From an uncultured Erythrobacter sp. (GTDB lineage: Bacteria; Pseudomonadota; Alphaproteobacteria; Sphingomonadales; Sphingomonadaceae), in the NCBI GenBank assembly GCA_947488085.1, contig CANKYI010000002.1, positions 1-64,000 of the forward strand: a DNA stretch of 64,000 nucleotides, in the 5' to 3' direction. Under the pieces are notes generated by a model, which ran no database searches, was not told the origin of the DNA, and saw only the letters and a list, made by a program, of their open reading frames with translations. A program made the position numbers and the translations under genes. Of this stretch, positions 3,915-45,691 are shown piece by piece (position 1 is the stretch's first letter; each line of letters begins with the position of its first letter).

Positions 3915-3915
3915 A
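3842..3915. repeat. 9-bp inverted repeat flanking the integrase ribosome-binding region
   Basis: TTGGGGGCC at 3842-3850 is the exact reverse complement of GGCCCCCAA at 3907-3915. The second arm touches the A of the integrase ATG. It could be a recombinase arm site or an operator or translation-blocking hairpin for the integrase; the sequence alone does not decide. Confidence 0.45.
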
Positions 3916-17518: not shown

Positions 17519-18010
17519 ACGTATCTCGAATTGCAATCACTGGAACCAAAGGAAAAACCCTACAAGAAGGCCGACGGAAGCGGATTGTATATCGAGGTCT
17601 GATCCAATGGCTCCAAGCTCTGGCGTTTCAAGTATCGATTGCTCGGTGCCGAGAAACGCATCTCGCTGGGCAAGTTCCCCGAGGTTTCGCTCGCAGAGAC
17701 ACGCAAGCAGCACGAAGAAATGATGGCCTTCGTTCGGCTGGATAAAGACCCCGTAATTGAACGCCAACGAGCAAAGCTGATTGCCTCGCCAAGTGCTAAG
17801 ACGACCTTTTATTCCGTAGCTCGCGAGTTCATCGACAAGCGAGCCAATGAGGGTCTGTCTGAAACGACAACGACGAAGAGCCTATGGCTTCTTGAGCAGC
17901 TCAAACCGCCAGAAGTCTTGGCGGCGCTCAAACGTATCGAGGCTCAGGGTAAGTATGAAACTGCGAGAGGCTTACTGAGGCGCCGCGCCGCTATTTCGTT
18001 CACGCTCCAG
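17519..18010 (+). pseudogene. decayed P4-type integrase, copy 1
   Basis: The plus strand reads KEKPYKKADGSGLYIEV, then an in-frame TGA (17600-17602), then SNGSKLWRFKYRLLGAEKRI, SLGKFPEVSLAETRKQHEEM and FIDKRANEGLSETTTTKSLW. This is the DUF4102 arm-binding and SAM-like region of an integrase related to the one at 3915. After LLEQLKP about 10 residues are missing before PEVLAALKRIEAQGKYETAR, and beyond ~17970 the frame is lost. No catalytic domain remains. It sits just inside the right-hand direct repeat, as expected of an old island end. Confidence 0.8.
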
Positions 18011-18156
18011 TGGTGGACGGAAAGACCAGTTAAAAGTGCTGCGCGACGGCGGAACACGCACCAGATTGGGCGATCAGGGCAAGGGGGTCAGGGTGAGGAC
18101 TTCAAAATTCGCAGCTGAAACAAGTAAAAACAAAATTAGGTCATTGGCGGTATCGG

Positions 18157-21800: not shown

Positions 21801-22670
21801 GTGGAAAGCGGTGAAGTGATCGTGGATGAGATGATGGCGGAACAGCTCGCCTTGCCTTCTCATGGTGCGATTCCATTGACCAATTTGACCAATAGTTTCG
21901 TTGAGGATGATGCTCAATTGTTCCAACAGAACCTCCAACGCGCGATTGAGCATGATGAGGAATATGAGCTAGACTTCCGGATCGATGCCGATGGCGAAGA
22001 CTTGAGATGGGTGCGTACTAGAGGCTTACCTTACAAAGCACTCGATGGACGGCGCAAAGTGGTTGGGCCAACACTCGATGTAACAGCCGAAAAACAGCAA
22101 AGCATGCTGCTTGATGAGATGAGTCACCGGATCAAGAACCTGTTCGCGGTTATCAGTGGTTTGGTTCAGGCGGCGCCCAAGGAGCATGAAGAGACCAAGC
22201 AGATGGCCGATGAATTGGTCGAGCGGATCGTGTCGCTAAGCAGGGTTTATGACCTCGCACGCAAAGACGTTTCGGCCAATGGACTTGATTTGGAAGAACT
22301 GTTGAAATCAGTTCTCGAACCGCACCGCTCCGATCAAAGCATGGAACTGCATGGCCCGGCTGTACAGATCGATCCGGAATTGGTGAACACTTTCACATTG
22401 ATCGTGCATGAGCTCACCACCAACACGGCAAAATATGGTGCCTTCAGCAATTCAGAAGGCTCGCTGACTGTGAATTGGTCAGTTGATGAAACGGGGATGG
22501 TCGCAATCGAGTGGTGTGAAAAGGTTCCAGGTTTTCAAGAGCCTGGGCCGCATTCAGGGTTTGGTAGCTTGCTGATAGAGTCTGGGATTCGACAACTTCG
22601 TGGGAAGTTTGCACGGTCTTTTTCGCAGGACGGGGCAATAATTGAATTTACTGTATCCGCAGGTGAGTGA
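18819..22670 (+). CDS. CheB-CheR-PAS-HWE histidine kinase fusion
   Basis: A 1283-residue cytoplasmic signalling protein. Domains in order: CheB methylesterase (~32-210; Ser41 in GASAGG, His68 in MHLDPHH, Asp160 in GTGGDGTAG); CheR methyltransferase (~225-480; PGCSSGQEAYSIAM SAM site, CRNMLIYL); a long coiled coil (~665-745) of NEELKSSNEEMMSMNEEL-type repeats; three PAS-like domains (~745-1090); and an HWE/HisKA_2 kinase with His1103 in DEMSHRIKNLFAV, the N-box HELTTNTAKYG (~1197) and the family-defining W-x-E in VAIEWCEK. It is followed 13 bp later by a receiver gene. Fusions of this kind are found outside chemotaxis clusters; the signal is unknown. No transmembrane segment is visible. Confidence 0.93.
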   Translation: MTAIRTGVSSLTKGQFVEEQSIQEPEMRAQLDFPVVGVGASAGGLEAVTSMFQNIESGTGMAFVLVMHLDPHHESMMAELLSSKTQISVRQIADNDHIEPDCLHVIPPGSSLRIEGKKFRLDKFSEPRGLRRPIDSFFTSLAQVQGEKAACVVLSGTGGDGTAGLRTVKEFGGISAVQSPEEARYDGMPFSAIGTKLVDFTLPAIDIVPRIKAFFDGADKSRFPENTHAAERVLREIFSMLKQSVGIDFSGYKRSTLLRRLNRRLQLKEIAEVENYLLDLAKDKDEQAALAGDFLINVTSFFRDRENFELLRQAVIVPLIEGRDASDEVRIWVPGCSSGQEAYSIAMMIDETCVELQRRPLVQIFATDIDEPMIDQARRGVYPVSMMSEMPRRYQEAYTVSLDERFEVLPRIREMVRFSAHNIIQDPPFSKVDLISCRNMLIYLGDELQEGVLPLFHFSLRPGGHLFLGTSESVTKRKDLFISLDQRARIFRRNDSARRVPLNLPLSLSTNESGANRGLQRLAQEEDFPRHSSLGSSNSTIYEFYAPPFLRVTQDGRIIDSSGDLSLFMMSRPGADRNIDILAREGVYEVIAPLIKDASATGERQAMKDVEVASQFGVQSTDIVAHPMPDETIAIIFLPKDRLKPVVDQFAVRPVTRDRQIATLQDDLQKTRLQLKSKVEEIETANEELKSSNEEMMSMNEELQSANEELTTANEELKNKIDELTLANADLDNFLQSSDLAMIVLDRGLKIRHVTDAARRMVPVMRSDEGRMLSEFNIPFGEFDVMSEARKVIETGASFSITTQANQNGQSFFLRITPYFFADGAVEGASVTLINISQEVELRQNLSLESKKLQLAMRAARMGSWDTNLETGEMEIDAVAAQLSGLDGAGTVNRDAFFTHMHTDDAQELARLRDGSVSVNEGYSFQVRFVKEGEEMRWVQLHAKPYTARDGSRRVAGLGFDVTELMTLQRALELESTRRELAMRAGRMGIAELDVESGEVIVDEMMAEQLALPSHGAIPLTNLTNSFVEDDAQLFQQNLQRAIEHDEEYELDFRIDADGEDLRWVRTRGLPYKALDGRRKVVGPTLDVTAEKQQSMLLDEMSHRIKNLFAVISGLVQAAPKEHEETKQMADELVERIVSLSRVYDLARKDVSANGLDLEELLKSVLEPHRSDQSMELHGPAVQIDPELVNTFTLIVHELTTNTAKYGAFSNSEGSLTVNWSVDETGMVAIEWCEKVPGFQEPGPHSGFGSLLIESGIRQLRGKFARSFSQDGAIIEFTVSAGE

Positions 22671-26172: not shown

Positions 26173-26889
26173 TCAGCATTGCTCATTGGCTAGGGCAGTT
26201 AGTTCCGCTCCCGCGACGTCGTCTCGATTGCTCATAACGCTTGTGATCCGGTTGAAAACTGCACAATCATAGCGGGTACCATTCTCGATTGTCGTGCTGA
26301 CGATTTCGACAAATGCATCAGTCGGCATAACTCGAACGCCGCGGTTGAGAAACTGATTGTGCCAGCGTGATCCTCCACTGACGATCCCAATTAAAGTCTT
26401 GCGACCTTCGCCACCCGGCTGAGCAAGCACCGGAGGTCCCAGTTCCACAAGGAGCGCATCTTGCGTATCTCTGCGGAGGAAGAGAGCAGCATAGCGCCTG
26501 GCTGCTTCTGGTGCGTCTCCAGCGTCAATTGCCAAACGCAGCATCGCTTCCTGCGCTAAAGGATCGCGCCATCCGCGCTGCGCTGCATATTGGATCGACA
26601 ATGCGCCTTGATCAAATGTGCCTGCTGCAATTTGCGCCTGCGCTAACAACCGCAAATGTTCGGCCGGAAGCGGTCGGCGACGGATCAACCGTTCTGCCTC
26701 GTCGATGGCAAGTGCAGGATCTTCGCCCGTCAAGGCGTAGGCTGTGACTGGTAGTTGTGCAGTCGAGCGAAACAACTCTGGTACTGATTGTGCCAGCGCT
26801 GGGGTTCGTTCAGCCTGTCGGTCAAGGTGTACCCCGACGGTCACCACCGCAATCACCAATAGAGCAATGCGCCACGCAATAGCACCCAT
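26173..26889 (-). CDS. membrane-anchored TPR-like protein at the left end of the polysaccharide locus
   Basis: A 238-residue protein with one N-terminal membrane helix (MGAIAWRIALLVIAVVTVGV) and a helical, TPR-like periplasmic part (LAIDEAERLIRRRPLPAEHL, GALSIQYAAQRGWRDPLAQE, EAARRYAALFLRRDT). The function is unknown. The ATG overlaps the TGA of the upstream O-antigen-ligase-like gene, so the two are translationally coupled and may work together in chain length or polymerisation. It ends only 6 bp from the convergent crotonase gene. Confidence 0.7.
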   Translation of the reverse strand: MGAIAWRIALLVIAVVTVGVHLDRQAERTPALAQSVPELFRSTAQLPVTAYALTGEDPALAIDEAERLIRRRPLPAEHLRLLAQAQIAAGTFDQGALSIQYAAQRGWRDPLAQEAMLRLAIDAGDAPEAARRYAALFLRRDTQDALLVELGPPVLAQPGGEGRKTLIGIVSGGSRWHNQFLNRGVRVMPTDAFVEIVSTTIENGTRYDCAVFNRITSVMSNRDDVAGAELTALANEQC

Positions 26890-28295
26890 CACAGGACCGT
26901 CTCCTGCGAAGAGTTAGTGTGGATGGGCGCGGAAAACCGCACCAGGATAAGCAGTGCGTATCCACCAAAGGCGAGCATCGACACGTTACGCAATGGGTAG
27001 TCAGTGATCGATTGCAGCGCAATTGTCAGTAAGATCACTCCTCCACTCCACGCGATCCATCGTTGCGGCGATGTGCGCGCTTTCCAGGTGAACCACACTA
27101 TCGATGCCAGCCACCCTGCAAGAAGCGCGAGGCCCGGCAAGCCGGCTTCAATTGCGACCTCCAAATAATCATTGTGTGCCCGTCCGGCTCGACGAAGGGT
27201 CATATTCTCTAACGATTCATCGATCTGAAAAACGTCATCAAAGGTGCCTGTGCCCGATCCCACAGGCCAATAGCGCTTAGCGGAATAGGCCGCATCCTCC
27301 CACATATAGCTGCGCGCATCTTCCCCCTCGTTGAAACGTTCGAGGACGTCATTCACTCGGCCAGGTGCTGCGACCACGACAGTGCCTGCCAATACCACAA
27401 CGACTACAATAGGAGCGATTAACAACAAGGCACTGCGCGGTCCGCGAACCGCCGCCGAGCTGTTCCGTCGTATTTGCCACAAGATCGCCTGCAAAACGGC
27501 AAGCGCGATTGGGATGATTGCGAGAATGAGTGCGGTGCGTGAACGCGTTAAGATCACAGCCACAAACAACAAAGTGCATATTGTGATGCGTCCAGCGAGT
27601 GCGGCATGCGCGAAGCGGGCAGGCGCTGGCAAGGTCGCCGCCAGCGCTAGGGTTCCAACCAAGAACAATCCCGCAGAATTGCGATTGGCAAATGAACCGA
27701 ACAGCACTCCACGCATAAGGTTTTCGGGGTAAAGTAGCCATTCTTGGCCGGTGGAGAGCGCTTGGGGAATACCCATAAGGAAGTTGATTAGACCCAACGC
27801 CACTACGATCCAACCGACTGTGATCAATTGATCGCGCGATGCGGTCCAGCCGATCGTCAGGATGGCCATTGGTGTGATCAAGGCGGTGACTGCGAGCAGG
27901 GTTCGAATTGGGTCAACGCTAGCTGTTGCCCACTCTTTGCCTCCAATCAGTTCAAACGACTGCACCATCAATTCGCGGCCCGGCAGCGCGCTCCATACTG
28001 GTGATGGTAAGGGGATGATATAGAGAAGCGGTACAATCACTGACAGGGCCGTCAGCACTCTCAATATGATTGGGGCGGTTCGCCAAAATGCGAAGAATCC
28101 GCGTTGATGGAACGACAGGGCAGCGAGTGCGGCGAGCTGAACGATCAGGTTTGAGATACCATATTTTGATCCGCCTCCGCCAAGGGCGACTGCCAGCACC
28201 AAGATAGTGATCAGAGCCCAAATAGGCCTGCCGCCACCAGCAGGGCTGTTGGTAAAGGCCAAACCGGCTTGATTGGGGATTCCCGCTTGCGTCAT
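26889..28295 (-). CDS. O-antigen ligase / Wzy-type polysaccharide polymerase
   Basis: A 468-residue inner-membrane protein with about 11-12 hydrophobic helices. The large loop holds the Wzy_C-type signature: SAKRYWPVGSGTGTFDDVFQ followed by RRAGRAHNDYLEVAIEAGLP. Members join or polymerise lipid-linked repeat units in the periplasm. It is first in a minus-strand pair with the TPR-like gene. A second protein of the superfamily is encoded at 45692, so one may be the polymerase and the other a ligase, which the sequence does not tell. Confidence 0.85.
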   Translation of the reverse strand: MTQAGIPNQAGLAFTNSPAGGGRPIWALITILVLAVALGGGGSKYGISNLIVQLAALAALSFHQRGFFAFWRTAPIILRVLTALSVIVPLLYIIPLPSPVWSALPGRELMVQSFELIGGKEWATASVDPIRTLLAVTALITPMAILTIGWTASRDQLITVGWIVVALGLINFLMGIPQALSTGQEWLLYPENLMRGVLFGSFANRNSAGLFLVGTLALAATLPAPARFAHAALAGRITICTLLFVAVILTRSRTALILAIIPIALAVLQAILWQIRRNSSAAVRGPRSALLLIAPIVVVVVLAGTVVVAAPGRVNDVLERFNEGEDARSYMWEDAAYSAKRYWPVGSGTGTFDDVFQIDESLENMTLRRAGRAHNDYLEVAIEAGLPGLALLAGWLASIVWFTWKARTSPQRWIAWSGGVILLTIALQSITDYPLRNVSMLAFGGYALLILVRFSAPIHTNSSQETVL

Positions 28296-28452: not shown

Positions 28453-28725
28453 TTAGGTACCAGGCGAACCATCGTCAGAATCGTTGCCAGCAAGAACGAC
28501 GATGCCAGCAATAGCCGCTGCCGCAGCCAAAAGCGCGATCAGGATGCCAGGCGTACCACGAAGCTCTTCACCATCGGCAGCGCGAGCAGTGCCGGGCTGA
28601 GCGTTTGAAGTGCTGTAAACCGGCGTATTGTCGCCAGCGCGGGTGTTAGCTTGAGCAGCGATTGGCGCAAAAGCCATGCTAGCCGCAGCCACAGTCACCA
28701 ACAGGCGAGACGTCGTTTTAATCAT
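28453..28725 (-). CDS. small exported protein with C-terminal membrane helix
   Basis: A 90-residue protein. It has a signal peptide (MIKTTSRLLVTVAAASMAFA, cleaved near AQA), a polar middle and a C-terminal hydrophobic helix (GILIALLAAAAAIAGIVVLA) followed by an acidic Gly/Ser tail. Small proteins of this design are common beside polysaccharide loci in Sphingomonadales, but no function is known to me. ATG 28725 was preferred over an ATG five codons earlier because it gives the usual signal-peptide start. A near-perfect palindrome lies in its promoter (28762-28782). Confidence 0.7.
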   Translation of the reverse strand: MIKTTSRLLVTVAAASMAFAPIAAQANTRAGDNTPVYSTSNAQPGTARAADGEELRGTPGILIALLAAAAAIAGIVVLAGNDSDDGSPGT

Positions 28726-28855: not shown

Positions 28856-29383
28856 TTAACGTGCACTCTTACTAGCCCTAACGGCTCTATGCACGCCAGA
28901 TCCTTCCGAATCATCGCAGTTGGTCGAATCAGCAAGGATGAGGTCGTATTGATCAATCTCGCCGCCTGTGACTACCTTGCCATCATGCAACAGCCAGGCA
29001 TGGGCACCGAACTGCCCATCTGTTGGATTCTCGACCCCGATCTGAATTTCACTCACCGCCTGCAAGCCCGAAAGCCAGTTTTGCGCAGCGATAGCTTGGA
29101 TGAGGCAATCACTTCGCCAGGGGAGCCTGTCCGACAAACGAGGCAAAACATAAGAAATCCGGGCAACGTCCGAAGGTTTGGCACGCGAGTGCCGATCCGT
29201 ATTTTTCTTAGCCTCGCGGTTGCGGAATGGGAGGTCCCTTACTTCAAATCGTGAGAAAACGATCCGAGCTTTGACCAATTCCCAAAGCCCACGCGTGACA
29301 AAAACTGTAAGCCAAGGGAGGTCTTTCAGCGCTGGCTTTTGACCAGCTTGTGGAACGTGTGGTGATTGCGCCGGATTCATCAT
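28856..29383 (-). CDS. lasso peptide biosynthesis B2 protein (leader peptidase)
   Basis: A 175-residue transglutaminase-like cysteine protease that removes the leader of the lasso precursor. The family core is plain: ISYVLPRLSDRLPWRSDCLI with catalytic Cys93, then GLQAVSEIQIGV and FGAHAWLLHDGKVVTGGE with catalytic His128; an acidic third residue is Asp144 or Asp147. It acts with the separate RRE protein encoded at 32870, which holds the leader. It is divergent from the cyclase gene with 98 bp between them. Length is normal for split B2 proteins. Confidence 0.9.
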   Translation of the reverse strand: MMNPAQSPHVPQAGQKPALKDLPWLTVFVTRGLWELVKARIVFSRFEVRDLPFRNREAKKNTDRHSRAKPSDVARISYVLPRLSDRLPWRSDCLIQAIAAQNWLSGLQAVSEIQIGVENPTDGQFGAHAWLLHDGKVVTGGEIDQYDLILADSTNCDDSEGSGVHRAVRASKSAR

Positions 29384-29405
29384 GTGCCTATGCCGCGAGC
29401 ATCAT

Positions 29406-29422
29406 GACACATAGGCTGTGTC
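29406..29422. promoter_or_regulatory. perfect dyad in the divergent lasso promoter region
   Basis: GACACA (29406-29411), five bases, then TGTGTC (29417-29422). A second, weaker dyad TGGCG/CGCCA follows at 29439-29454. Both lie in the 98-bp gap between the divergent B2 and cyclase genes. A regulator site shared by both operons is inferred. Confidence 0.4.
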
Positions 29423-29481
29423 GCTGCAAAGCGTGGTTTGGCGGTTGTGCGCCAGCGATCAAGGACAAGAGACCTATTTAG

Positions 29482-31350
29482 ATGTCTGCCATTGGAGCCA
29501 TTTTCTCGCCCGACGGTGTGTGCGAAGAGCAACTCGACCGGATGAAGGAAATCCTCGGTCAGGTCCCACACGATGATGCAGGCAAATGGTCTGCAGGCAA
29601 GGTTGGGCTGGCGGGCTGCACCCTCCACACTAACCTGCAATCGCGTGATCAGGCGCAACCTCACACAAATGAAGACGGCCGGATCGCGGCGGTTTTTGAT
29701 GGTTATCTGCTTAACCCTGACGAGTTAATGGATACTCTCTCGTCCAAGGGCGCGGTGTTTCGCAACCGGTCAGACGTCGAGATTACCTTGCGCGCCTATG
29801 AGGCTTGGGGAGATGCCTGCGCGGACCGGTTAGAAGGCGAGTTTGCGTTCATCGTTGCGGATACGCGGGCCGGTCGGCTGTTCGCCGCGCGCGACCACAT
29901 GGGCTTTGTCCCGTTGTATTATCGGGTGGAGCATGGTCGCCTAATTCTTGCGTCTGACTTTCGAACATTGACGGCTTTGTCAAAGACGGCGGTCAGGCCG
30001 AACCATGCATTTCTCGCGCAGATTGTGACCAACACTTGGCATCTGCGTGAAGACACACCTTGGCGCGAGATCAAAAGGCTGGTGCGGGCTCACACGCTGA
30101 GTTTTGATGGCCGCAATCTTAAGCTTCAGAAATACTGGTCGCCACCGACGGACATCACGATCCGTTATAAAACCGATCAGGAATATGCCGAGCATTACCG
30201 CGAGCTTTTGTTCGATTGCGTCAAGCGGGCCTCCCGCTCCGATAGACAGGTTGGTGTCGCGGTAAGCGGGGGCCTTGATTCTTCCGCGTTGTTTTTGGTG
30301 GGGCACCAACTTGAGGAGAAAGGCGAATGGCTGTCTCCTGGATTGGCGGGATATTCACTCGCAGCCTCAGAAGATGGCAATGCCTTTGAGTTGCCCTTTG
30401 CGCGCGCCGCCGCAGTGCATGCCGGAAGGGAGTTGAACGAGATCCCTTTGTTCGATCCCGATATCGACTGGTATACGAAGGATGCGCATTGGCATTGCGA
30501 TCTCCCGATACCTTCGAATGGCGCGATGATGCTCGATATGGAGCGGCGTGTCGTGGAGGATGGCGGGCGCGTGATCATCAATGGTGTTGGCGGCGACGAG
30601 TGGTTGACCGGCAACAATCTGGACTATCGCGAATATATAAAAGAGCGCGATCTGCTCAGTTTCTGGCAAGCTTGGAAGTATGATCGAATGGCATTCGGAT
30701 CTGCTGATGCTTTTAGAACGGCGCTTCGCCAAATCATCGGAGAAGTTACACCTGAGCCTTTACGCCGCGTGATCCGTGCGCGTTTTCGTGAAAAGCAACG
30801 GGCAAACGACGTTGCCTTGAAGTGGATCGTGCCAGAATTGCGGTCGGCCTTAGCAGAGGCTGAGGAAGCATATGAAGCATCAATGCCATCCGATGCGGTC
30901 GATTGGGCGAAAACGAATTTGGCGACGTCACCGTTTAGCGACCTTTCGCATTCGATGATGCGGCGTCAGAGGGCCATGATTGGCGTTGAATCGCGCCATC
31001 CGATGTTGAGTCGGGCCTTCATCGAATTTTCGCTTAGAACACCGACGAATATCAAGCGCCGTGGGCGTGTCACGAAACTTGTGCATCGCAATGCAATGGC
31101 AGGCATTTTGCCTGAAATTATCCTTAATCGGACTTCCAAGGCTAACTTCACAAATACGAAAATTGATATGCAGTTCGCCGCCTATGCGCGAGAGCATGCC
31201 GCAGAACGGCTGGCGGAAATATGCGATCTCGAAGGACTGTCAGATATTTTTGATGTCGACTTTGGCTCGCCAGAGGGCGACTATTGGGCGTGGGAAATTT
31301 GGGGTCTTTACGCATCCGCAGCATTTTTGTACTACGGCGGACGCAAATAA
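29482..31350 (+). CDS. lasso peptide cyclase (asparagine-synthetase-like, C protein)
   Basis: A 622-residue enzyme that adenylates the side chain of the ring Asp/Glu of the core peptide and closes the macrolactam with its N-terminal amine. The N-terminal glutaminase-like domain (MSAIGAIFSPDGV; RLEGEFAFIVADTRAGRLFA; ARDHMGFVPLYYRV) has Ser, not Cys, at position 2, so it cannot release ammonia, as in other lasso cyclases. The ATP-pyrophosphatase motif is VAVSGGLDSSALF (residues 260-270). Later conserved segments are NGVGGDEWLTGN and GVESRHPMLSRAFIEFSLRT. The precursor gene follows 43 bp later, on the same strand. Confidence 0.93.
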   Translation: MSAIGAIFSPDGVCEEQLDRMKEILGQVPHDDAGKWSAGKVGLAGCTLHTNLQSRDQAQPHTNEDGRIAAVFDGYLLNPDELMDTLSSKGAVFRNRSDVEITLRAYEAWGDACADRLEGEFAFIVADTRAGRLFAARDHMGFVPLYYRVEHGRLILASDFRTLTALSKTAVRPNHAFLAQIVTNTWHLREDTPWREIKRLVRAHTLSFDGRNLKLQKYWSPPTDITIRYKTDQEYAEHYRELLFDCVKRASRSDRQVGVAVSGGLDSSALFLVGHQLEEKGEWLSPGLAGYSLAASEDGNAFELPFARAAAVHAGRELNEIPLFDPDIDWYTKDAHWHCDLPIPSNGAMMLDMERRVVEDGGRVIINGVGGDEWLTGNNLDYREYIKERDLLSFWQAWKYDRMAFGSADAFRTALRQIIGEVTPEPLRRVIRARFREKQRANDVALKWIVPELRSALAEAEEAYEASMPSDAVDWAKTNLATSPFSDLSHSMMRRQRAMIGVESRHPMLSRAFIEFSLRTPTNIKRRGRVTKLVHRNAMAGILPEIILNRTSKANFTNTKIDMQFAAYAREHAAERLAEICDLEGLSDIFDVDFGSPEGDYWAWEIWGLYASAAFLYYGGRK

Positions 31351-31393
31351 GGAATTAACCCTGCCACTGGGGTGCAACAGGACAGGATTTTTA

Positions 31394-31522
31394 ATGACCA
31401 AGACTACTGAAAAAGCCAAATACGAAGCGCCAAAGCTCACTGTTTTTGGCTCGGTTCGTAACCTTACCGGTGGTAGCGGTACCATGTTCCGCGATGGCGC
31501 GGTTAACAACTCGCGCTTCTGA
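31394..31522 (+). CDS. lasso peptide precursor (A gene), predicted core GSGTMFRDGAVNNSRF
   Basis: A 42-residue precursor. The leader carries the motif read by RRE proteins, YEAPKLTVFGSVRNLT (Y-x-x-P-x-L-x-x-x-G-x-x-x-x-L-T). By the rule that Thr is the penultimate leader residue, cleavage falls after residue 26 (LTG), leaving a 16-residue core that starts with Gly. Asp8 of the core would close an eight-membered-residue ring with Gly1; cleavage one residue earlier would give a nine-residue ring to Asp9. The AGGA at 31379-31382 is a good ribosome-binding site. From the residue masses, the cyclised 16-mer has a monoisotopic mass of about 1696.77 Da. The core ends in Phe, not Ser. Confidence 0.88.
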   Translation: MTKTTEKAKYEAPKLTVFGSVRNLTGGSGTMFRDGAVNNSRF

Positions 31523-31574
31523 TCTTTTGATTGGAACGCAGCCGCATAGCGGACGCGTTTCGTTCGATTTTCGA

Positions 31575-31606
31575 AAGGCATCCCGATTGGGGTGCCTTTT
31601 GTTTTT
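31575..31606 (+). terminator. rho-independent terminator after the lasso precursor
   Basis: A ten-base-pair stem, AAGGCATCCC and GGGGTGCCTT, with loop GATT and then TTGTTTTT. It lies 53 bp after the precursor stop. It should end most transcripts of the cyclase-precursor unit, so the kinase and RRE genes downstream probably have their own promoter or rely on read-through. Confidence 0.85.
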
Positions 31607-31964
31607 GGGCGTAAGTCACGCTACTTCTTGGATAATTTTATCTAAACCTCCATCGTGAGAAAACCCGGAATGAGGTTCATCGCGCGCAGCGAGCTTCTAT
31701 TCGAACTATGACGGATCAGCGGCTCTTGAAGCTGGTGGGGAATTGCCTTTGCAGATTGATCAGCCCAAATGCGCCTGCTCAAAGGTTAACTTGCAGGCTC
31801 ATCACTAATTAACGCTCACGGACTGAAGCCTTTCTCTAGCCGGTGCTTCGAATCAGGCGGGTTGAGCTCGCTGCGAATCAATTGACGCAACCGCCGATGA
31901 CTGCGCTGAAACGAAGGCAACGTCTTGGCGGCTGGTCCCGGATAACGCTAGGGGCTTATCTCAC
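31607..31964. other. intergenic stretch between lasso precursor terminator and kinase
   Basis: No gene is supported. A 34-codon open frame at 31708-31812 has no leader motif and no Gly/Asp core, so it is not a second precursor. The promoter of the kinase/RRE pair must lie here; I cannot assign boxes with confidence. Confidence 0.5.
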
Positions 31965-32840
31965 ATGCAATGGAAACCCGAACCACCGCGAGCGCAGCAG
32001 CCTCTGCCCACTGAACCGTATGATCGCTGGGTATCGCCCGAAGGGGAATGCATGGCTGAATTTCACCGAGCTACTGCCGGCATTCTCATCCGGTTCCCCA
32101 AGCAGGTCGATTTCTTGCTTTCCCCAAATGAGGATGGACCTGAGTTCAGCATCGCCGGTTGGCCGTCTCCAGAAAGTGACTCTAAAACGGCGATCAATCT
32201 TTATCACAACGCGATAGAACCAATCTTGGGCAATCACTCAGGTGGATTGTTCTTGCATGGCAGCGCGGTACAAATCGAGGATGATAGTTGTGCGGCAAGT
32301 GGTGCGGCGGCGATTGCCTTTCTTGGGCTGTCACGCGGAGGAAAGACAACATTGGCGGGCTCTCTTGCGAGAGTAGGACATCCCTTTTTGACCGAAGATG
32401 TCATCGATTTGCGGTTGGAAGAGGGGCGATATTGGCTGCAACCCAAACGTTCTAAACTGCGGTTGTTCGCGGACAGCGCTCGGTTTCTTTTGGGTAGCGA
32501 CACTGTAATTGAAGACGCGGAAACCAAGCAAGATGTGGAGGCGGGTGAAACCCTGCCGTTTGCTGATATTTCGGTTCCCCTGCGTCAAATCTATATCCTC
32601 GGGACTGACCATGCTGCAGCGTTGTCGATCAAGCGTTTCTCGATGCAGGAAGCGTTGAGCGCGCTTATGCCACACTCCTTTATTCTGGATGTGGAGGACC
32701 GGGAACGTCTGCGGGCGCATTTTGCAAGAATGGCTGACCTATCTCAGGACGTCGAATGCTATGCGCTTGACTTTACACGCGACTACGCGGATTTGCCGCG
32801 CGTGGTGGCCGCCATCCTGGATCAATACCGATCCAGATAG
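31965..32840 (+). CDS. HPr-kinase-like protein of the lasso cluster
   Basis: A 291-residue protein related to the catalytic part of HPr kinase. It has the HGSAV strand (residues 98-102), the P-loop FLGLSRGGKTTLAG (119-132) and the acidic segment FLTEDVIDLRL (141-151). Proteins of this type are frequent in proteobacterial and Bacillus lasso clusters; in the paeninodin and pseudomycoidin systems the homologue phosphorylates the hydroxyl of a C-terminal Ser. Here the predicted core ends in Phe with Ser three residues earlier, so the target is open. It precedes the RRE gene by 29 bp. ATG 31965 is used; a Met at residue 30 is possible. Confidence 0.85.
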   Translation: MQWKPEPPRAQQPLPTEPYDRWVSPEGECMAEFHRATAGILIRFPKQVDFLLSPNEDGPEFSIAGWPSPESDSKTAINLYHNAIEPILGNHSGGLFLHGSAVQIEDDSCAASGAAAIAFLGLSRGGKTTLAGSLARVGHPFLTEDVIDLRLEEGRYWLQPKRSKLRLFADSARFLLGSDTVIEDAETKQDVEAGETLPFADISVPLRQIYILGTDHAAALSIKRFSMQEALSALMPHSFILDVEDRERLRAHFARMADLSQDVECYALDFTRDYADLPRVVAAILDQYRSR

Positions 32841-32869
32841 CGAGCAAGAACGGAAACGCAGGCCCGCAT

Positions 32870-33151
32870 ATGCAGCTCACAGATCGCTTTACAGTGTCAC
32901 AAGATGTCGTCGCACGCGAAGTGGGCGGCGAATTGGTTCTATTGGATCTTGCGAGCGGCCAATATTTTGGCCTTGATTCCGTCGGCGGGCGAATCTGGGA
33001 ATTGCTGTCAGAGCGTCCGTATGAATTGTCTGAACTGTGTGACTGTATCGAAGCGGAATTCGACGCGCCGCGCGAACAGATCGAAGCTGATTTGATAGCG
33101 CTTGCTGCCCAGCTTTGTGAGCAGGAATTGATCGAAGCAGAGGCTGCCTAA
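32870..33151 (+). CDS. lasso peptide RRE protein (PqqD-like, B1)
   Basis: A 93-residue leader-binding protein of the PqqD fold. Typical features: VSQDVVAREVGGELVLLDL, SGQYFGLDSVGGRIWELLSE, then the helical part ELCDCIEAEFDAPREQIEAD. In split lasso systems this RNA-free RiPP recognition element holds the leader motif (here YxxPxLxxxG) and delivers it to the B2 protease. Its 3' end overlaps the 3' end of the convergent ABC exporter gene by four bases. Confidence 0.92.
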   Translation: MQLTDRFTVSQDVVAREVGGELVLLDLASGQYFGLDSVGGRIWELLSERPYELSELCDCIEAEFDAPREQIEADLIALAAQLCEQELIEAEAA

Positions 33152-34824
33152 GCGCCCTTGTATGGTTCTTCGCTGACGCCGTTCGGTGTCAATTTTAGAA
33201 CGCGATCGGCCAAGGCCAAACTGGCTGGCCGATGGGTGATAATGATGACTGTTCGGTCTTTGAGCGTTGAAACGCAGTTCTCTATAAACGCAGCCTCACC
33301 TTCCAAGTCATACATGCTTGTCGCTTCGTCAAGGATGTAAATCGGTGGGTCGCGAAACAATGCGCGAGCCAGCGCGATGCGCTGTCTTTGCCCGCCAGAT
33401 AAACGAACGCCATGGTCGCCTATCTGGGTTTCATAGCCATCAGGCAGCGCGTCGATAAACTTATCCGCCTGAGCCGATTTAGCGGCGCGAATCACCATTT
33501 CCTCGGTATCAGTGGGGGCTTGTCCAAAGGCGATATTCTCAGCAATCGTTCCGTTGAACAGCAAAGCTCGTTGAGGAACGTACCCAAACTGGCGACGCAG
33601 ATCCTGCACGTCTAGGTCTCGAATGTCGTCGCCATCCAGTGATATTTCTCCGGCTTGCGCATCATAGAAACGCAGCAGCAATCGCACGAGAGTGGATTTG
33701 CCGACACCATTGTCACCGGTAAGTGCGACAGTTTCTCCAGCGGCAATGACTAGGTCTAATCCAGTGAAAACTTCGGGTCTGCCGGGATAGGAAAAATGCA
33801 ATTGCTCAATTGCAATCGCGCCTTCTGACCGCTTGACCTTCTTACCATCCAGATGGCCTTGCTCAGGGTCAAGCGCCAAGACGGCCTCAAGGCGAGCGAG
33901 CGTGCCGCGAGCCATCTGATATGCGCCGTACATTGCTGCGAGGCTACCCACGGGCCGGGTCAGAAGGGCGGCATAAAGCAGAAATGCAAATAACTCAGCC
34001 GCAGAATTTCTACCCTCGGTCAGCGTCTCGCTGCCAAATATCAGTACCGCGATTGCTGCCAAAGCAGCCACCAGCGCCATCGCAGGGCCGATAAAGGCGT
34101 TAAGTCGCGCTTGCTTCATCGCAAGATGCCGTGACTTCTCGGCAGCTGCGGCAAATTCTTGGCGATGATGCTCCTCGGTCGCAAAAGCTTTGATCGCGGG
34201 AAGTATCTCCAGATCCCGTTCTGCGATCGCAATCAGGGCCACCTCTGCAGCCCGCACCTTGCCTGAAAATCCACGTAACCGCCTGCCGGCAATTCGGGCC
34301 ATGATAATGAAGACCGGGATCAGCACTGGTACTATCATCGCCATTACCGGATCGATCCAAAACAAGATCAGCAGCGCGCCGATCGCGGTTAGGATCAGTG
34401 CGGGAGCATTGGCGATCGTGTTGGCCAGAAAGTCGCTCAGATTGCCGACTTCATACGATGTAAGCGCGAGCACATCGCCGCTGCGCGAAGCGTCGTGAAA
34501 ACTCAGCTGCATCATTTGAACATGATTGTAGATCCGTTTGCGAAGCTCAGTGAGGATGCTCAAGGACGCACGCTCCGAGACAATTGCTGCAGCGATATTG
34601 AGCGTCGTAAGTAAAACAAGTGCGGCGATCAGAGGGGCAATTGCTTGTGAGAGCTCGAAGTCCGAAGACGCTTCAGAACCGCTTGTGACTACGCCGCCTA
34701 AGACCTGTGCCGCAAGCCATGGCACAGCTAAAGTCGCCAACGAACTGAGCAGAGTGAGCGCTCCGATAAGCGTCAACTGCCACCGGAATCGCCGTGCCCA
34801 TTCTGACCAGAAACGAAAACTCAT
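33148..34824 (-). CDS. lasso peptide ABC exporter (D protein)
   Basis: A 558-residue half-transporter: six membrane helices (~15-310; e.g. LIGALTLLSSLATLAVPWLA) fused to an ATPase with Walker A GDNGVGKSTLVRLLLR, Q-loop FGYVPQRALLFN, signature VRLSGGQRQRIALARALF and Walker B PIYILDEATS. In lasso clusters this exports the mature peptide and gives self-immunity. It may instead, or also, serve the surrounding polysaccharide locus. ATG 34824 overlaps the TGA of the upstream nucleotidyltransferase gene (ATGA); a 117-residue in-frame extension upstream lies inside that gene and is rejected. Confidence 0.9.
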   Translation of the reverse strand: MSFRFWSEWARRFRWQLTLIGALTLLSSLATLAVPWLAAQVLGGVVTSGSEASSDFELSQAIAPLIAALVLLTTLNIAAAIVSERASLSILTELRKRIYNHVQMMQLSFHDASRSGDVLALTSYEVGNLSDFLANTIANAPALILTAIGALLILFWIDPVMAMIVPVLIPVFIIMARIAGRRLRGFSGKVRAAEVALIAIAERDLEILPAIKAFATEEHHRQEFAAAAEKSRHLAMKQARLNAFIGPAMALVAALAAIAVLIFGSETLTEGRNSAAELFAFLLYAALLTRPVGSLAAMYGAYQMARGTLARLEAVLALDPEQGHLDGKKVKRSEGAIAIEQLHFSYPGRPEVFTGLDLVIAAGETVALTGDNGVGKSTLVRLLLRFYDAQAGEISLDGDDIRDLDVQDLRRQFGYVPQRALLFNGTIAENIAFGQAPTDTEEMVIRAAKSAQADKFIDALPDGYETQIGDHGVRLSGGQRQRIALARALFRDPPIYILDEATSMYDLEGEAAFIENCVSTLKDRTVIIITHRPASLALADRVLKLTPNGVSEEPYKGA

Positions 34825-35978
34825 CGTAACACAGCCCGTCGCATGATGCGGCCCGCAGTTTCGATCATCAGGCGGGCTTGTAAAATCGCTGTCGGCCAAT
34901 TTTGCGCACTGGGATATTTCTCCATCAGATGCTGGCGGGGAGGTAAGGCTCGGCTCCGGATTAAATGCGCTTTTGCACGCACCCCTCGTGTCTTGCGTAG
35001 ATCGAGCCAGAACTGGCTCAGCCCGTCCAGCTTGGTAAAGTAGGTCAATATGTCGGGGGCGATGGGATACGCTTCCAACTCTGCCAAGTGTGACTCCGGT
35101 AGGACCGCACCCAGATCGCGCTGAGCGCCGCGCAAAGCTTCGGCGACCAACGGACCCGTTCGCTCGCGCGTGCAATGACGCGTCAGAATGGCCCAGTCGT
35201 CGTCCGTCATTGATCGAACCAATAGGTCAAAATCGACCATCCAGATTAGTCTGCTCGGACTAGCTAGCCGTGCTTTTTCGGCGTCATAGCCGTGCATCGC
35301 ATGCCATTTCTGATTGATCGCGCCGTGCAACACCATGGTAGCATTGTCAGGCCGAAACGTGTCTTTACAAAATTCAGGCAGAGGCTGTTTTGTTGAGAAG
35401 AACAGATCCAATGGTAAGACGCTATGCAAAACTGCGCGCTCTGAAGGCTCCCAATGCAGATCGAGGGCATGCACAAAAAACCCAGCCGCATTGTGCAGCC
35501 ACCCCTCTTGATAGTTCAAGCCGTGAGGATCAGGTTTGCGGTACCAGCCGAGCTTCTTCAAGGTCGCTCGCGTTTGCTCCTTGTCACGGGGTCGGATCAG
35601 AAGGTCGGTATCGCCACGTCTTCGTATGGGAGGCGCATCATGAAAACCGTAGGCAAGCGCGGTGCCTTTCATAATGACGCTGGCAATATTGGACGCGTTC
35701 AATTCGCGGAGCAGTGTGCAGATGGCGTCATGGTGGGTCGTCTCCCATAGCACCATCAACCGGGCCTCTTCCGCCATCCGCTCAAGCAAAGGTTGCGGCC
35801 AAGCATCCAAAAGCTCTACCCGGCGATGAAGCAGCAAAGGAATTCCGTGATATTCGATCCGGGTCCATACGTCTGACCAAGCCGCGTCTGCATCAGTTTT
35901 CCAACGCGCCGGCTCACCTGCACGGATGGCGCGGACGGCAGCTGCCAGAAATTTGTCAATGTCGGGCGTATCAATCAT
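34821..35978 (-). CDS. nucleotidyltransferase-family protein of the lasso cluster
   Basis: A 385-residue protein of the uncharacterised nucleotidyltransferase (NTP_transf_5) family. The active-site pattern is VIMKGTALAYGF followed by RRRGDTDLLIRPRD, with the two metal-binding Asp in G-D-T-D (residues 122-125). In the pseudomycoidin system a related protein adds sugar to the phosphate that the lasso kinase puts on the peptide. Coupling to the exporter (ATGA overlap) and presence of the kinase gene on the other strand fit a tailoring role here too, although the same family also occurs in polysaccharide loci. Confidence 0.82.
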   Translation of the reverse strand: MIDTPDIDKFLAAAVRAIRAGEPARWKTDADAAWSDVWTRIEYHGIPLLLHRRVELLDAWPQPLLERMAEEARLMVLWETTHHDAICTLLRELNASNIASVIMKGTALAYGFHDAPPIRRRGDTDLLIRPRDKEQTRATLKKLGWYRKPDPHGLNYQEGWLHNAAGFFVHALDLHWEPSERAVLHSVLPLDLFFSTKQPLPEFCKDTFRPDNATMVLHGAINQKWHAMHGYDAEKARLASPSRLIWMVDFDLLVRSMTDDDWAILTRHCTRERTGPLVAEALRGAQRDLGAVLPESHLAELEAYPIAPDILTYFTKLDGLSQFWLDLRKTRGVRAKAHLIRSRALPPRQHLMEKYPSAQNWPTAILQARLMIETAGRIMRRAVLR

Positions 35979-36178: not shown

Positions 36179-37069
36179 TTGGCGCAGCGACGTAAAGGCA
36201 TCATTCTGGCGGGCGGATCCGGCACCCGGCTATATCCATTGACCCGCGGTGTGTCGAAGCAGTTGATGCCAATCTTTGACAAACCAATGATCTACTATCC
36301 GCTCAGCACACTGATGCTGGCGGGCATCCAAGACATTTTGATCATCACTACACCAGAAGATGCTGCTCAGTTTCAGCGTGTGTTAGGCGATGGATCGGAT
36401 TTCGGCGTAAACCTGGTCTATGCTGAACAGCCAAGGCCAGAAGGGTTGGCGCAAGCGTTTCACATTGGTGCAGACTTTACTGCGGGGCACCCAAGCGCAC
36501 TAATCCTGGGCGACAATATCTTTTATGGTCATGGCCTGCCAAGTTTGCTGAATAGCGCGAACGCGAAGCCCACGGGATCAACAGTGTTCGCCTATCGCGT
36601 GACCAATCCAAAAGACTTCGGTGTGGTAGAATTCGACAAAGGCGGCACTGCGATCTCAATCGAGGAAAAGCCTGTCGAGCCACGATCAAACTATGCCGTC
36701 ACGGGCCTCTATTTCTATGACGAAACGGTAGTGGATCGCGCCCGCGATCTTAAACCATCGCCGCGCGGAGAATTGGAAATTACTGATCTCAACCGGCTCT
36801 ACTTGGATGACGGTGCTATGTCGGTCGAGATCATGGGACGCGGCTTCGCGTGGCTTGATACCGGTACGCATTCTTCGTTGCTAGATGCCGCCACATATGT
36901 TCGCATCACTGAGGAGCGCCAGGGCTTGAAGATTGCTTGTCCTGAAGAGATCGCTTGGCGGCAAGGCTTTATCGATGATGAGCAACTGGCCCGCATTGCT
37001 GAGCCGTTGCGCAAATCCGGATATGGCGATTATCTGATTCAATTGCTTGAGAAGTCGGTGTTTTCGTGA
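36179..37069 (+). CDS. rmlA: glucose-1-phosphate thymidylyltransferase
   Basis: A 296-residue enzyme making dTDP-glucose from dTTP and glucose-1-phosphate. Signature [20 protein letters not shown] followed by [20 protein letters not shown]; later [20 protein letters not shown] and ITDLNRLYL. Start TTG 36179 follows GGGTAGGGAT; no better ATG exists. First gene of rmlA-C-D-B, all four overlapping or touching, so one operon for dTDP-L-rhamnose. Confidence 0.96.
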
Positions 37070-37611
37070 AAGTTGCTGAAACCGAAATCCCTGGTCCGAT
37101 GATCATTGAACCGCATGTTTTTGGCGATGCGCGCGGGTTTTTTATGGAGACATGGAGCGAGGCAGGCTTTGCAGCAGCTGGTCTCAACATGACCTGGGTC
37201 CAAGACAATCACAGTCGATCACAAAAAGGCGTCCTGCGAGGCCTGCATTTCCAAAACCCCGGTGCGCAAGGCAAACTGGTTCGAGTGACGCGCGGTGCGG
37301 TGTTTGATGTAGCGGTGGATTTGCGCAAGAGTTCTGCACATTTCGGACAATGGGTTGGTGTTGAACTGACCGCAGAAAATAGCCGCATGTTTTGGGTGCC
37401 GGAGGGCTTCGCACATGGCTTTCTGACTTTGGCTGACGACACAGATTTTCTTTACAAATGCACTGCGCCTTATGCGCCAGAATCAGAATACACCTTGGCA
37501 TGGGACGATCCGGTGGTGGGTATCGATTGGCCCGTTCAGGGCTTTGAACCGATTATTTCGGAAAAAGATGCCAAGGGCCTGACGCTGTCAGATGCGCCGG
37601 TTTTCGCATGA
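37066..37611 (+). CDS. rmlC: dTDP-4-dehydrorhamnose 3,5-epimerase
   Basis: A 181-residue cupin epimerase, third step (acting after RmlB) in dTDP-L-rhamnose synthesis. Conserved motifs: [35 protein letters not shown] (catalytic His in RGLHFQ), [40 protein letters not shown] and the DPVVGIDWP segment. GTG 37066 overlaps the rmlA stop (GTGA). Length normal. Confidence 0.96.
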
Positions 37612-38465
37612 GGGTTTTGATAACAGGGGCGGGTGGACAGCTGGGCAGTGCTTTGCAAAGCACTGCGCCCCGACACGCCGATATTTGTGCAATTGATGTG
37701 GAGGACGTGGATCTCACGGATTCAGCGATGTTGCGTGCACGTTTGGCCGTTGAGGCGCCCAACATCATTATCAATGCTGCTGCCTATACTGCGGTCGATA
37801 GAGCTGAAAGCGAAGAGGAACTTGCTTACGCCATCAACGCCGATGCTGTTGGAGTTATGGCGGAGGCGATGTCTGCCACCGGGGGAAAGCTGGTGTACGT
37901 TTCGACTGATTTTGTCTTCGATGGTACTGCATTGCAGGCATATAAGCCTAACGATGCACGTGCTCCGATCAGCGTCTACGGTCGTAGCAAAGCAGCCGGA
38001 GAGGACCATCTAGGGGCCACCGATCTCCTTGTCCGTACCGCATGGGTCTATTCTGCAGGAGGCGCGAATTTCGTGCGTACTATGATCCGGCTAATGAACG
38101 AGCGCTCGAACCTGGATATAGTCGCAGATCAGATCGGATCACCAACTTGGGCAACTGGTCTTGCTCGTACCATCTGGGGGCTGATCGATAAGGGTGCATC
38201 TGGGACTTTCCACCACAGCGACGCGGGCGAGATCAGCTGGTATGACTTTGCTGTGGCGATTGCGGAAGAGTCCCATGCGTTGGGATTGATCAATGCAATT
38301 CCGACGATCAAACCCGTCACCACCGCCGATTATCCTACCCCAGCCAGCCGGCCGGCGTTCTCGCCTTTGGATTGCCAGAAGACACGTGCGCTTCTGGGGG
38401 ATGACCACATCCATTGGCGCGAAAACCTACGCTTCATGCTGAAAGAGGAAGTGTCTCTTGGCTAA
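37608..38465 (+). CDS. rmlD: dTDP-4-dehydrorhamnose reductase
   Basis: A 285-residue short-chain reductase giving dTDP-L-rhamnose. NAD(P)-binding GAGGQLGSALQ, YVSTDFVFDG, the YxxxK pair in ISVYGRSKAAGEDHL, and LVRTAWVYSAGGANFVRTMI. ATG 37608 overlaps the rmlC stop by four bases; its own stop overlaps rmlB by eight. All family residues are visible. Confidence 0.95.
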   Translation: MRVLITGAGGQLGSALQSTAPRHADICAIDVEDVDLTDSAMLRARLAVEAPNIIINAAAYTAVDRAESEEELAYAINADAVGVMAEAMSATGGKLVYVSTDFVFDGTALQAYKPNDARAPISVYGRSKAAGEDHLGATDLLVRTAWVYSAGGANFVRTMIRLMNERSNLDIVADQIGSPTWATGLARTIWGLIDKGASGTFHHSDAGEISWYDFAVAIAEESHALGLINAIPTIKPVTTADYPTPASRPAFSPLDCQKTRALLGDDHIHWRENLRFMLKEEVSLG

Positions 38466-39516
38466 TGTGCTTGTGACCGGGGGGGCCGGCTTTATCGGCG
38501 GCAATTTCGTGTATTTCTGGAATGCACATCACCCTGATGATAGGGTAGTTGTGCTGGACGCACTGACCTATGCGGGTAATCGTTCAACTATCGCCAATGC
38601 TCCATGTTCAGAATTGATCGAAGGGGACATTCGAGACCAAGCTCTGGTCGAGAAGCTCCTGCGCGAGCGCGACATTGCGACAATCGTGCATTTTGCTGCT
38701 GAGAGTCATGTTGACAGATCGATTACCGGCCCTGACGCGTTCATCGATACAAATATTTTGGGCACCAATAGCCTTTTGAAAGCAGCCCGAGCTGTTTGGC
38801 TTGACGGCAGTGGCCAAGGGCACCGTTTCCACCACATCTCGACTGATGAAGTTTACGGCTCGTTGGGCAACGATGATCCCGCGTTTAGCGAAAACACGCC
38901 CTATGCGCCCAACTCGCCCTATTCCGCATCCAAAGCTGCATCTGATCATCTGGTTCGCGCATACCATCACACTTACGGGTTGAATGTGACGACTAGCAAT
39001 TGCTCAAACAATTACGGGCCGTATCAATACCCGGAGAAGCTAATTCCTCTGTTCTTCCTAAACGCACTTTCAGGAAGGGCGCTGCCAATTTACGGCGACG
39101 GAATGAATGTGCGCGATTGGTTGCATGTTGAGGATCATTGCCGCGGGATTGAGGCATGCTTGATCAACGGTCAGCCGGGCGAGACTTACAATATTGGCGG
39201 TGGGGCGGAGCTGCCCAACTTAGAAGTGATCGACGCGATTTGCCGCGAGGTTGATCGTGCATTTGAAGAAATTGATGGTCTGGACGCCCGCTATCCCGAT
39301 GCTCCGGCAGCAAAGGGCGGCAAGACTGAAACCCTGAAAACTTTTGTAACTGACAGAGCGGGCCATGACCGCCGCTATGCAATCGATGAGACTAAGGCTC
39401 GCGGCGAACTTGGTTATGCCGCACGGCATGGCTTTGAGGCAGGGTTGTGTCAAACACTGCGCTGGTATCTGTCCAACGAAGATTGGTGGCGACCGCTTTT
39501 GAAGGCTGAAAAGTGA
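38458..39516 (+). CDS. rmlB: dTDP-glucose 4,6-dehydratase
   Basis: A 352-residue SDR enzyme forming dTDP-4-keto-6-deoxyglucose. Motifs: LVTGGAGFIGGNFVYFW, FAAESHVDRSI, HISTDEVYGSLG, APNSPYSASKAASDHLVRAY (catalytic Y-x-x-x-K), NCSNNYGPYQYPEKLIPLF and IYGDGMNVRDWLHVEDHC. It starts with TTG at 38458, inside the end of rmlD, the only start that keeps the N-terminal Rossmann strand. Last of the four rhamnose genes; an acyltransferase follows one base later. Confidence 0.96.
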   Translation: MANVLVTGGAGFIGGNFVYFWNAHHPDDRVVVLDALTYAGNRSTIANAPCSELIEGDIRDQALVEKLLRERDIATIVHFAAESHVDRSITGPDAFIDTNILGTNSLLKAARAVWLDGSGQGHRFHHISTDEVYGSLGNDDPAFSENTPYAPNSPYSASKAASDHLVRAYHHTYGLNVTTSNCSNNYGPYQYPEKLIPLFFLNALSGRALPIYGDGMNVRDWLHVEDHCRGIEACLINGQPGETYNIGGGAELPNLEVIDAICREVDRAFEEIDGLDARYPDAPAAKGGKTETLKTFVTDRAGHDRRYAIDETKARGELGYAARHGFEAGLCQTLRWYLSNEDWWRPLLKAEK

Positions 39517-45546: not shown

Positions 45547-45691
45547 TGCAATTCCTTGTGTTGCGAACAAAACAAGAACACATTTATCAGGGGATTGCTC
45601 TGTAGGAAAATCTATTCTCGTCAACAAACGGGTGGAGTAAAATGAGATATCTTGCTTGGCACTGCATAGGCGTCACCCTATAGGCTCCGCC

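Follow-up and report, generated by a model that had tools for sequence, protein, structure and literature searches.

Which residue of a lasso peptide is modified by a kinase encoded beside it, and what would such a peptide do inside a polysaccharide locus? These questions are raised by a 64,000-nucleotide stretch of DNA from an uncultured marine Erythrobacter sp. (contig CANKYI010000002.1, positions 1 to 64,000; hereafter the window), in which positions 28856-35978 are almost certainly a complete lasso-peptide cluster. It comprises a precursor (A), a leader-binding protein (B1), a leader peptidase (B2), a macrolactam cyclase (C), a predicted peptide kinase (K), an exporter (D) and a nucleotidyltransferase-like protein (N), and lies among polysaccharide genes (Table 1).

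Table 1. Location, strand and supporting matches of the lasso genes, their neighbours and further precursors (window positions unless a locus is given)
Feature	Location	Strand	Match or motif
TPR-like protein	26173-26892	-	PF13432 19.7 bits, under cut-off; accompanies the Wzy homologue in related loci
Wzy_C / O-antigen ligase-type polymerase	26889-28295	-	PF04932 68.7 bits
Small protein, 90 aa, signal-peptide-like start (by eye)	28453-28725	-	No Pfam/NCBIfam match; homologue at the same place in most related loci
B2, leader peptidase (transglutaminase-like)	28856-29383	-	NF033537 lasso_biosyn_B2 60.1 bits (cut-off 33); PF13471 65.6 bits
C, lasso macrolactam cyclase (asparagine-synthetase-like)	29482-31350	+	Asn_synthase PF00733 122.4 bits; GATase_7/6 domains
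A, precursor, 42 aa	31394-31522	+	NCBIfam lasso leader NF033521 26.2 bits (cut-off 19)
K, HPr-kinase-like peptide kinase (predicted)	31965-32840	+	H98, G121, G126-K127-T128, E144-D145
B1, RRE / PqqD-like leader-binding protein	32870-33151	+	PF05402 PqqD 70.2 bits
D, ABC exporter	33148-34824	-	PF00664 and PF00005
N, nucleotidyltransferase-like (NTP_transf_5)	34821-35978	-	PF14907 91 bits; R-R-R-G-D-T-D stretch
Methyltransferase	L127:5749-6870	-	Pfam methyltransferase domains above cut-off; PRMT domains below
Second precursor, main chromosome	L127:7012-7176	-	Core GSANVGQDGALGMTMNP
S74-fused precursor	L023:8012-8398	-	
S74-fused precursor	L024:10428-10787	+	
Other S74-fused precursors	L138, L140, L141, L145 and others		

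The lasso cluster and its precursors

A sequence-only reading had proposed these seven genes, and each was found intact in its place, with family or domain matches agreeing with the assigned parts except for K. The matches of B2, A, B1, D and N exceed the family cut-offs and C has the domain matches; a precursor with a leader, the RRE of B1, B2 and an asparagine-synthetase-like cyclase stand together. The strands define three putative transcription units, B2 (-), C-A-K-B1 (+) and D-N (-), as that reading held, and C starts with Met-Ser, which agrees with the Ser2 it had assigned to the cyclase. The frame of D extends to a TTG at 35175 in the list of open reading frames, and the ATG at 34824 gives a 4-base overlap with the end of N. 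A also scored 25.9 bits against the cyanobacterial lasso model NF033528, under its cut-off of 33. In the whole genome, B2 is the sole PF13471 match at E 0.001, and among six PF00733 matches only C (123.8 bits) and a 671-aa asparagine-synthase-like frame (339.4 bits) exceed 31 bits.

The cluster is not a chance assembly, because the same genes recur in the same order in 17 related loci (L017-L033); neither B2 nor D was detected in L024, and L025 likewise gave no D. Eight of these loci (L026-L033) are named Erythrobacteraceae, namely six Erythrobacter, including E. longus DSM 6997 and Erythrobacter sp. NAP1, one Qipengyuania and one Erythrobacteraceae metagenome-assembled genome. In a cyclase search, 10 of the family's 298 genomes had the cluster, its own included, and these belong to 3 of 96 genera; a partial Burkholderiales match (L034, 38% identity over query residues 1-163) was not used. 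A search of 72,556 plasmid records, from which those of its own genome may be absent, gave no cyclase match at E 1e-40. One report predicts lasso clusters in Erythrobacter genomes and, in its accessible part, does not study them further (PMC9723273).

The alignment of 18 precursors, A included (alignment A1), divides A into the leader Y(-17)EAPKLTVFGSVRNLTG(-1) and the core GSGTMFRDGAVNNSRF. Tyr(-17), Pro(-14), Leu(-12) and Thr(-2) were the anchors for the predicted cleavage site and ring, with the core beginning at Gly1 and an eight-residue ring reaching Asp8; Gly or Ala at position 1 and Asp or Glu at 7-9, as in lasso cores, are represented here by G1 and D8. We collected 80 distinct precursors, of which 78 could be anchored on Tyr(-17); L112 (genome G334) and a spurious 16-residue match in L119 were left out of these counts. 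Thr(-2) is present in 78/78, the window's included. Core residue 1 is Gly in 74 and Ala in 4, and the ring acceptor is Asp8 in 71, the remaining seven having Asp9 (six) or Glu8 (one). The leader anchors and the family alignment thus bear out the core and the Gly1-Asp8 ring put forward earlier, and make this ring very probable; the product is predicted to adopt a threaded lasso fold. The mass calculated earlier for the cyclised 16-mer was also correct (M+H 1697.7812; with HPO3, 1777.7476).

The core is identical to that of L026 and nearly fixed among close relatives. In 5/5 comparisons with relatives, A had the lowest nonsynonymous divergence (dN) of the lasso genes (0.02-0.085 vs 0.07-0.44), these values being rough as the synonymous divergence (dS) is often near saturation and the precursor is short. 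With the A1 profile, members were retrieved from 42 of 114 genomes in the same genus, 21 of 40 in a second genus and 28 of 396 in the order (3 of 84 genera). Some loci depart from the common layout: the L112 precursor match contains one in-frame TAG, with C, K and B1 matches nearby and intact copies in relatives, and L087, L091 and L146 have a tandem pair of precursors behind a single cyclase, with Cys in those of L091 and L146. In L165 (G321) and L166 (G375), a cyclase stands with one or more precursors, and the stretch yields no match to K, B1, B2 or N.

The genome encodes two precursors, the second of which lies on the main chromosome next to a methyltransferase gene and an ssb-like gene (the latter by eye), and no match to lasso machinery was found in this 14 kb stretch. 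Because the genome has a single B2 and a single lasso cyclase among its Asn_synthase matches, the second precursor would need processing in trans by B1, B2 and C of the window. We found no report of lasso peptides with an orphan precursor in the literature searched, which excludes most subscription-journal papers. Homologues of the methyltransferase are located between A and K in many related clusters, and Met occurs in the tail of 33/35 precursors directly before a methyltransferase gene vs 11/43 others, counts uncorrected for relatedness. A methyltransferase remnant considered in the A-K gap of the window (31523-31964) was rejected, the single reading frame that was translated containing no long open stretch and tblastn with three methyltransferases giving no match in the window at E 1e-4. 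A PqqD/RRE domain suspected by eye at the methyltransferase C terminus was likewise dropped (1.3% probability in a profile comparison with B1).

The kinase and the hydroxyl residue of the ring

The description of K as HPr-kinase-like is supported by its motif and by a weak fold match. H98, G121, G126-K127-T128 and E144-D145 are invariant in 9/9 aligned sequences (the window and eight relatives); K has no Pfam match, and NCBIfam gave a weak PEP-carboxykinase match of 14.4 bits vs a cut-off of 369. The best 14 PDB chains retrieved by Foldseek with the K model (predicted local distance difference test, pLDDT, 62) are all HPr kinases, with a best E of 5.6e-3. For N, R119, R120, R121, G122, D123 and D125 are invariant in 9/9 aligned sequences, and the two best fold matches of its model (pLDDT 60) are nucleotidyltransferases (E 0.33 and 0.57); N may elaborate a phosphate on the ring. 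Searches by sequence for solved relatives of K and N gave only matches with E of at least 0.15, to unrelated-looking molecules.

The kinases of paeninodin, pseudomycoidin and SyanA are described as modifying a C-terminal Ser (PMC9266682), a site also stated for the paeninodin and pseudomycoidin kinases in the available part of another report (PMC10368454). The sequence-only reading had taken this tailoring as its model, which is not supported here, since Phe is the last residue of the window core and only 2/78 family cores have Ser at the C terminus; its more general suggestion that K and N may tailor the product is left standing by the presence of both genes. What is conserved is a hydroxyl residue in the ring, Ser2 in 72/78 and Thr2 in 1/78 cores, with the other five carrying Ser or Thr at position 3. 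A strict Ser2 rule was abandoned in favour of Ser/Thr at 2 or 3, given the Met2 cores in L149-L152 and the Gly2 core in L153.

We next set the kinase motif against the core. A GKT/ED kinase accompanies Ser/Thr2 in 34/34 distinct cores (32 with a strict motif pattern and 2 with a relaxed version), and a GKS/DD kinase accompanies cores with Ser/Thr at position 3 only in 5/5; two further cores, whose kinase is truncated, were excluded, and the counts are uncorrected for relatedness. Since a C-terminal Ser is rare, Ser/Thr at 2 or 3 is conserved and the kinase motif co-varies with this position, phosphorylation probably occurs in the ring, at Ser2, and not at the tail. The match between the position 2-vs-3 switch and the kinase motif would amount to a direct, testable specificity rule.

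By analogy, BsfK of Bradymonas, which phosphorylates ring Ser3 of BsfA and contains a G-K-S ... D-D motif (PMC10368454), is a better precedent for K than the paeninodin and pseudomycoidin kinases. According to the consulted part of that report, the two systems share a split B1/B2, an HPr-kinase-like K and an N gene, a YxxPxL leader at -17 to -12, a Gly1-Asp8 ring, the lack of a C-terminal Ser and a hydroxyl residue early in the ring (PMC10368454). They differ in Ile(-2) and Ser3 of BsfA vs Thr(-2) and Ser2 here, and in GKS...DD of BsfK vs GKT...ED of K (PMC10368454). By residue order, without an alignment, the His, the Lys and the second Asp of the BsfK motif H-G-G-G-K-S-D-D are the same in K, while Ser is replaced by Thr, the first Asp by Glu and the second Gly by Arg. 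For BsfA/BsfK, the available part of the report mentions neither a polysaccharide link nor a methyltransferase, an S74 fusion or a trans precursor, and BsfA is the one experimental case of ring phosphorylation of a lasso precursor in the literature consulted (PMC10368454).

The polysaccharide neighbourhood and competing explanations

To the left of the lasso genes lie the Wzy_C polymerase and TPR-like genes, and on the other side, at 36179-39516 (+), is a gene set that we take to be rfbA-rfbC-rfbD-rfbB for dTDP-L-rhamnose, named by eye and from recall and not scanned. We compared 28 cyclase-bearing loci of the window's type, some with short flanks, leaving out L065-L067, which were found through Wzy, and L158, in which no cyclase was found on the stretch. 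A close homologue of Wzy is no more than 5 kb from the cyclase in 25/28 (one rearranged), and one of RfbA no more than 6 kb away in 22/28, the window being counted in both. L160 has divergent, reordered lasso genes that still lie between rfbCA and the Wzy-TPR pair. Wzy genes occur in 193 of 298 genomes of the family at E 1e-20, and close copies (E <1e-60) in 19, of which ten are the lasso genomes, three (L065-L067) have a different kinase-lasso set beside Wzy, that of L065 being partial at a contig end, and six show no such set in the 14-20 kb covered around Wzy.

The second kinase-lasso type resembles the window in its Wzy and TPR neighbours, which also adjoin L193-L195, the nearest further cyclase relatives of the L065-L067 type, and L066 and L067 have K, B1, B2, C, D and N matches as in the window. 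Its cyclase is 26-27% identical to the window type, the kinases of L065-L067 carry GKS and DD instead of the GKT/ED of K, and the precursors of L065, L066 and L193 have a W..P.L leader, Ile(-2) and a C-terminal Ser, unlike the window precursor. Of 25 divergent-cyclase loci, 20 were newly taken in, and two of the other five, L066 and L067, lie in stretches already covered. Of 17 more divergent loci (L196-L212), 15 match none of 18 polysaccharide queries, as do 9 of the 11 that have a kinase match; the queries were the window's own polysaccharide proteins at E 1e-15, which would miss dissimilar polysaccharide genes. The exceptions are L208, with OPX/Wzc/Wzy-like genes, and L200, with a weak RfbB-like match, and the idea of polysaccharide linkage as a general kinase-lasso trait was dropped. 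As a control, 16 orphan-precursor loci (12-14 kb) gave no match to the 18 queries at E 1e-15. The polysaccharide tie is a clade trait, neither general nor a chance placement, and shared descent explains much of it. To our knowledge, the use of lasso peptides to their makers is unknown for most of them, and the recurring tie of a lasso cluster to a polysaccharide polymerase offers a lead on it.

The best overall explanation, which we consider reasonably likely, combines a lasso cluster, phosphorylation of ring Ser2, elaboration by N, a second precursor processed in trans and a link to polysaccharide, and it builds on the genes observed, the anchors of cleavage site and ring, the conservation pattern, the co-variation of the kinase motif, the synteny and the second precursor. 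B1 would bind the leader, and K would phosphorylate the hydroxyl of Ser2, a residue of the ring to be formed, before the leader is removed. B2 would then cleave after Gly(-1), C would join Gly1 to Asp8, N would attach a sugar or nucleotide to the phosphate and D would export the product, and the same B1, B2 and C may process the second precursor of the main chromosome in trans. Because the cluster is a stable part of the polysaccharide locus, the tailored peptide would probably work with cell-surface polysaccharide and not as a free-standing antibiotic; the functional tie taken by itself we regard as tentative.

Several observations weigh against this explanation. C scored 239.9 bits with the NCBIfam lasso cyclase model, under its cut-off of 525. 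The GKS/DD cases are few, four in one genus and one in another, and the perfect split between GKT/ED and GKS/DD may reflect a single evolutionary event. Three genomes (G321, G375 and G394) gave the tested cyclase-precursor pairs without a nearby K; G375 and G394 have a kinase elsewhere, and G321 (100% complete, 20 contigs) retains Ser2 with zero kinase matches, because of which Ser2 may serve another role or outlast the kinase. No fold match of K or N passes E 0.001, both models are of low confidence, and K was compared with BsfK by the order of named residues, without alignment to the BsfK sequence. Polysaccharide genes do not need lasso genes, because the six genomes mentioned above have a close Wzy homologue and no lasso gene set within 14-20 kb around it, and shared descent alone could keep neighbours together.

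Three other explanations were weighed. The cluster could be an ordinary one of the paeninodin/pseudomycoidin kind, in which K modifies a tail Ser (Ser14) and the neighbourhood has no meaning. Such clusters have the same parts list, with K in the paeninodin, pseudomycoidin and SyanA systems and N too in pseudomycoidin (PMC9266682), Ser14 is present in the window core and in many SRF-type cores, and neighbours can persist by descent. We nevertheless find it unlikely, as the core lacks a C-terminal Ser, 21 cores have Ser and 13 have Thr at position 14 vs Ser/Thr2 in 73/78, and the kinase motif tracks ring position 2 vs 3. Moreover, the Wzy tie outlasts the rearrangement of lasso genes in L160 and is shared by the second kinase-lasso type (L066, L067 and L193-L195), not by 15 of the 17 more divergent loci. 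That K or N is inactive and the product an unmodified lasso peptide would accord with Glu144 of K, which by motif order stands where BsfK has its first Asp, and with the failure of Pfam to recognise K; the invariance of H98, K127, E144 and D145 and a dN of K far under dS (0.092 vs 1.101, against L026) make it quite improbable.

The peptide might also be a secreted antibiotic or signal for which the polysaccharide locus is merely a landing place. Lasso peptides are often antimicrobial, and D is an exporter. On the other hand, a core nearly fixed in close relatives is not expected of an arms-race product, and no immunity or receptor gene was recognised among ten scanned proteins; we consider this alternative somewhat unlikely.

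S74-fused precursors and other features of the window

The window precursor, with its 42 aa, has no S74 domain, but 13 of the 78 family precursors, each of 100 residues or more, carry a fused Peptidase_S74-like domain. Two of them were scanned and matched PF13884 Peptidase_S74 with 27.4 and 33.8 bits (cut-off 22). Ser-Asp-x-Arg-x-Lys-x-Asn directly follows the core in 13/13 long precursors, and a stretch FG-x-[ML]-A-[DQ]-E-V is found in 12/13, L014 having Glu-Ile. In endosialidase and MyRF, the self-cleaving dyad is a Ser with a Lys five residues on, and cleavage of MyRF requires a trimer, according to the parts of the reports consulted (PMC8326128, PMC3742440). The fused precursors have the same Ser-Lys spacing in 13/13 as those Peptidase_S74 chaperones (PMC8326128), but the domain is joined here to a lasso leader and core and not to a spike, fibre or transcription factor. 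Self-cleavage, if it occurs, would yield cores of 15-30 residues, and a lasso precursor equipped with such a self-cleaving chaperone would represent a new type of design. No report combining a lasso peptide with Peptidase S74 was found in the same literature.

In a broader proposal, the lasso system would be a hub in polysaccharide assembly. Ser2 in the ring would be phosphorylated, N would add a sugar, perhaps from the neighbouring dTDP-rhamnose genes, and the resulting glyco-lasso would be part of the Wzy-system polysaccharide or regulate it. A single machinery would handle several precursors of the genome, and in relatives the self-cleaving trimeric chaperone of some precursors would hold and then free the peptide tail. 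We judge this proposal unlikely as a whole.

The window also contains a second Wzy_C protein and two sulfotransferase-family proteins (45656-47092, 47089-47937 and 47948-48883), perhaps a second, sulfated polysaccharide set, and a 690-aa protein at 43205-45277 with no Pfam match at E 1e-5, similar by eye to a frame at the start of L066. To the left of the lasso locus are two phage-type integrases by Pfam (3915-5135 and 6625-7713) and a shorter integrase-like frame by eye (17639-18118); no tRNA was found in the window. Further genes encode a CusB-like membrane-fusion protein with a C-terminal CusF copper-binding domain (221-1756), a protein with a caspase domain (Peptidase_C14) that by eye begins like a signal peptide (9925-10734) and a 1283-aa CheB-CheR-PAS-HWE histidine kinase fusion (18819-22670).

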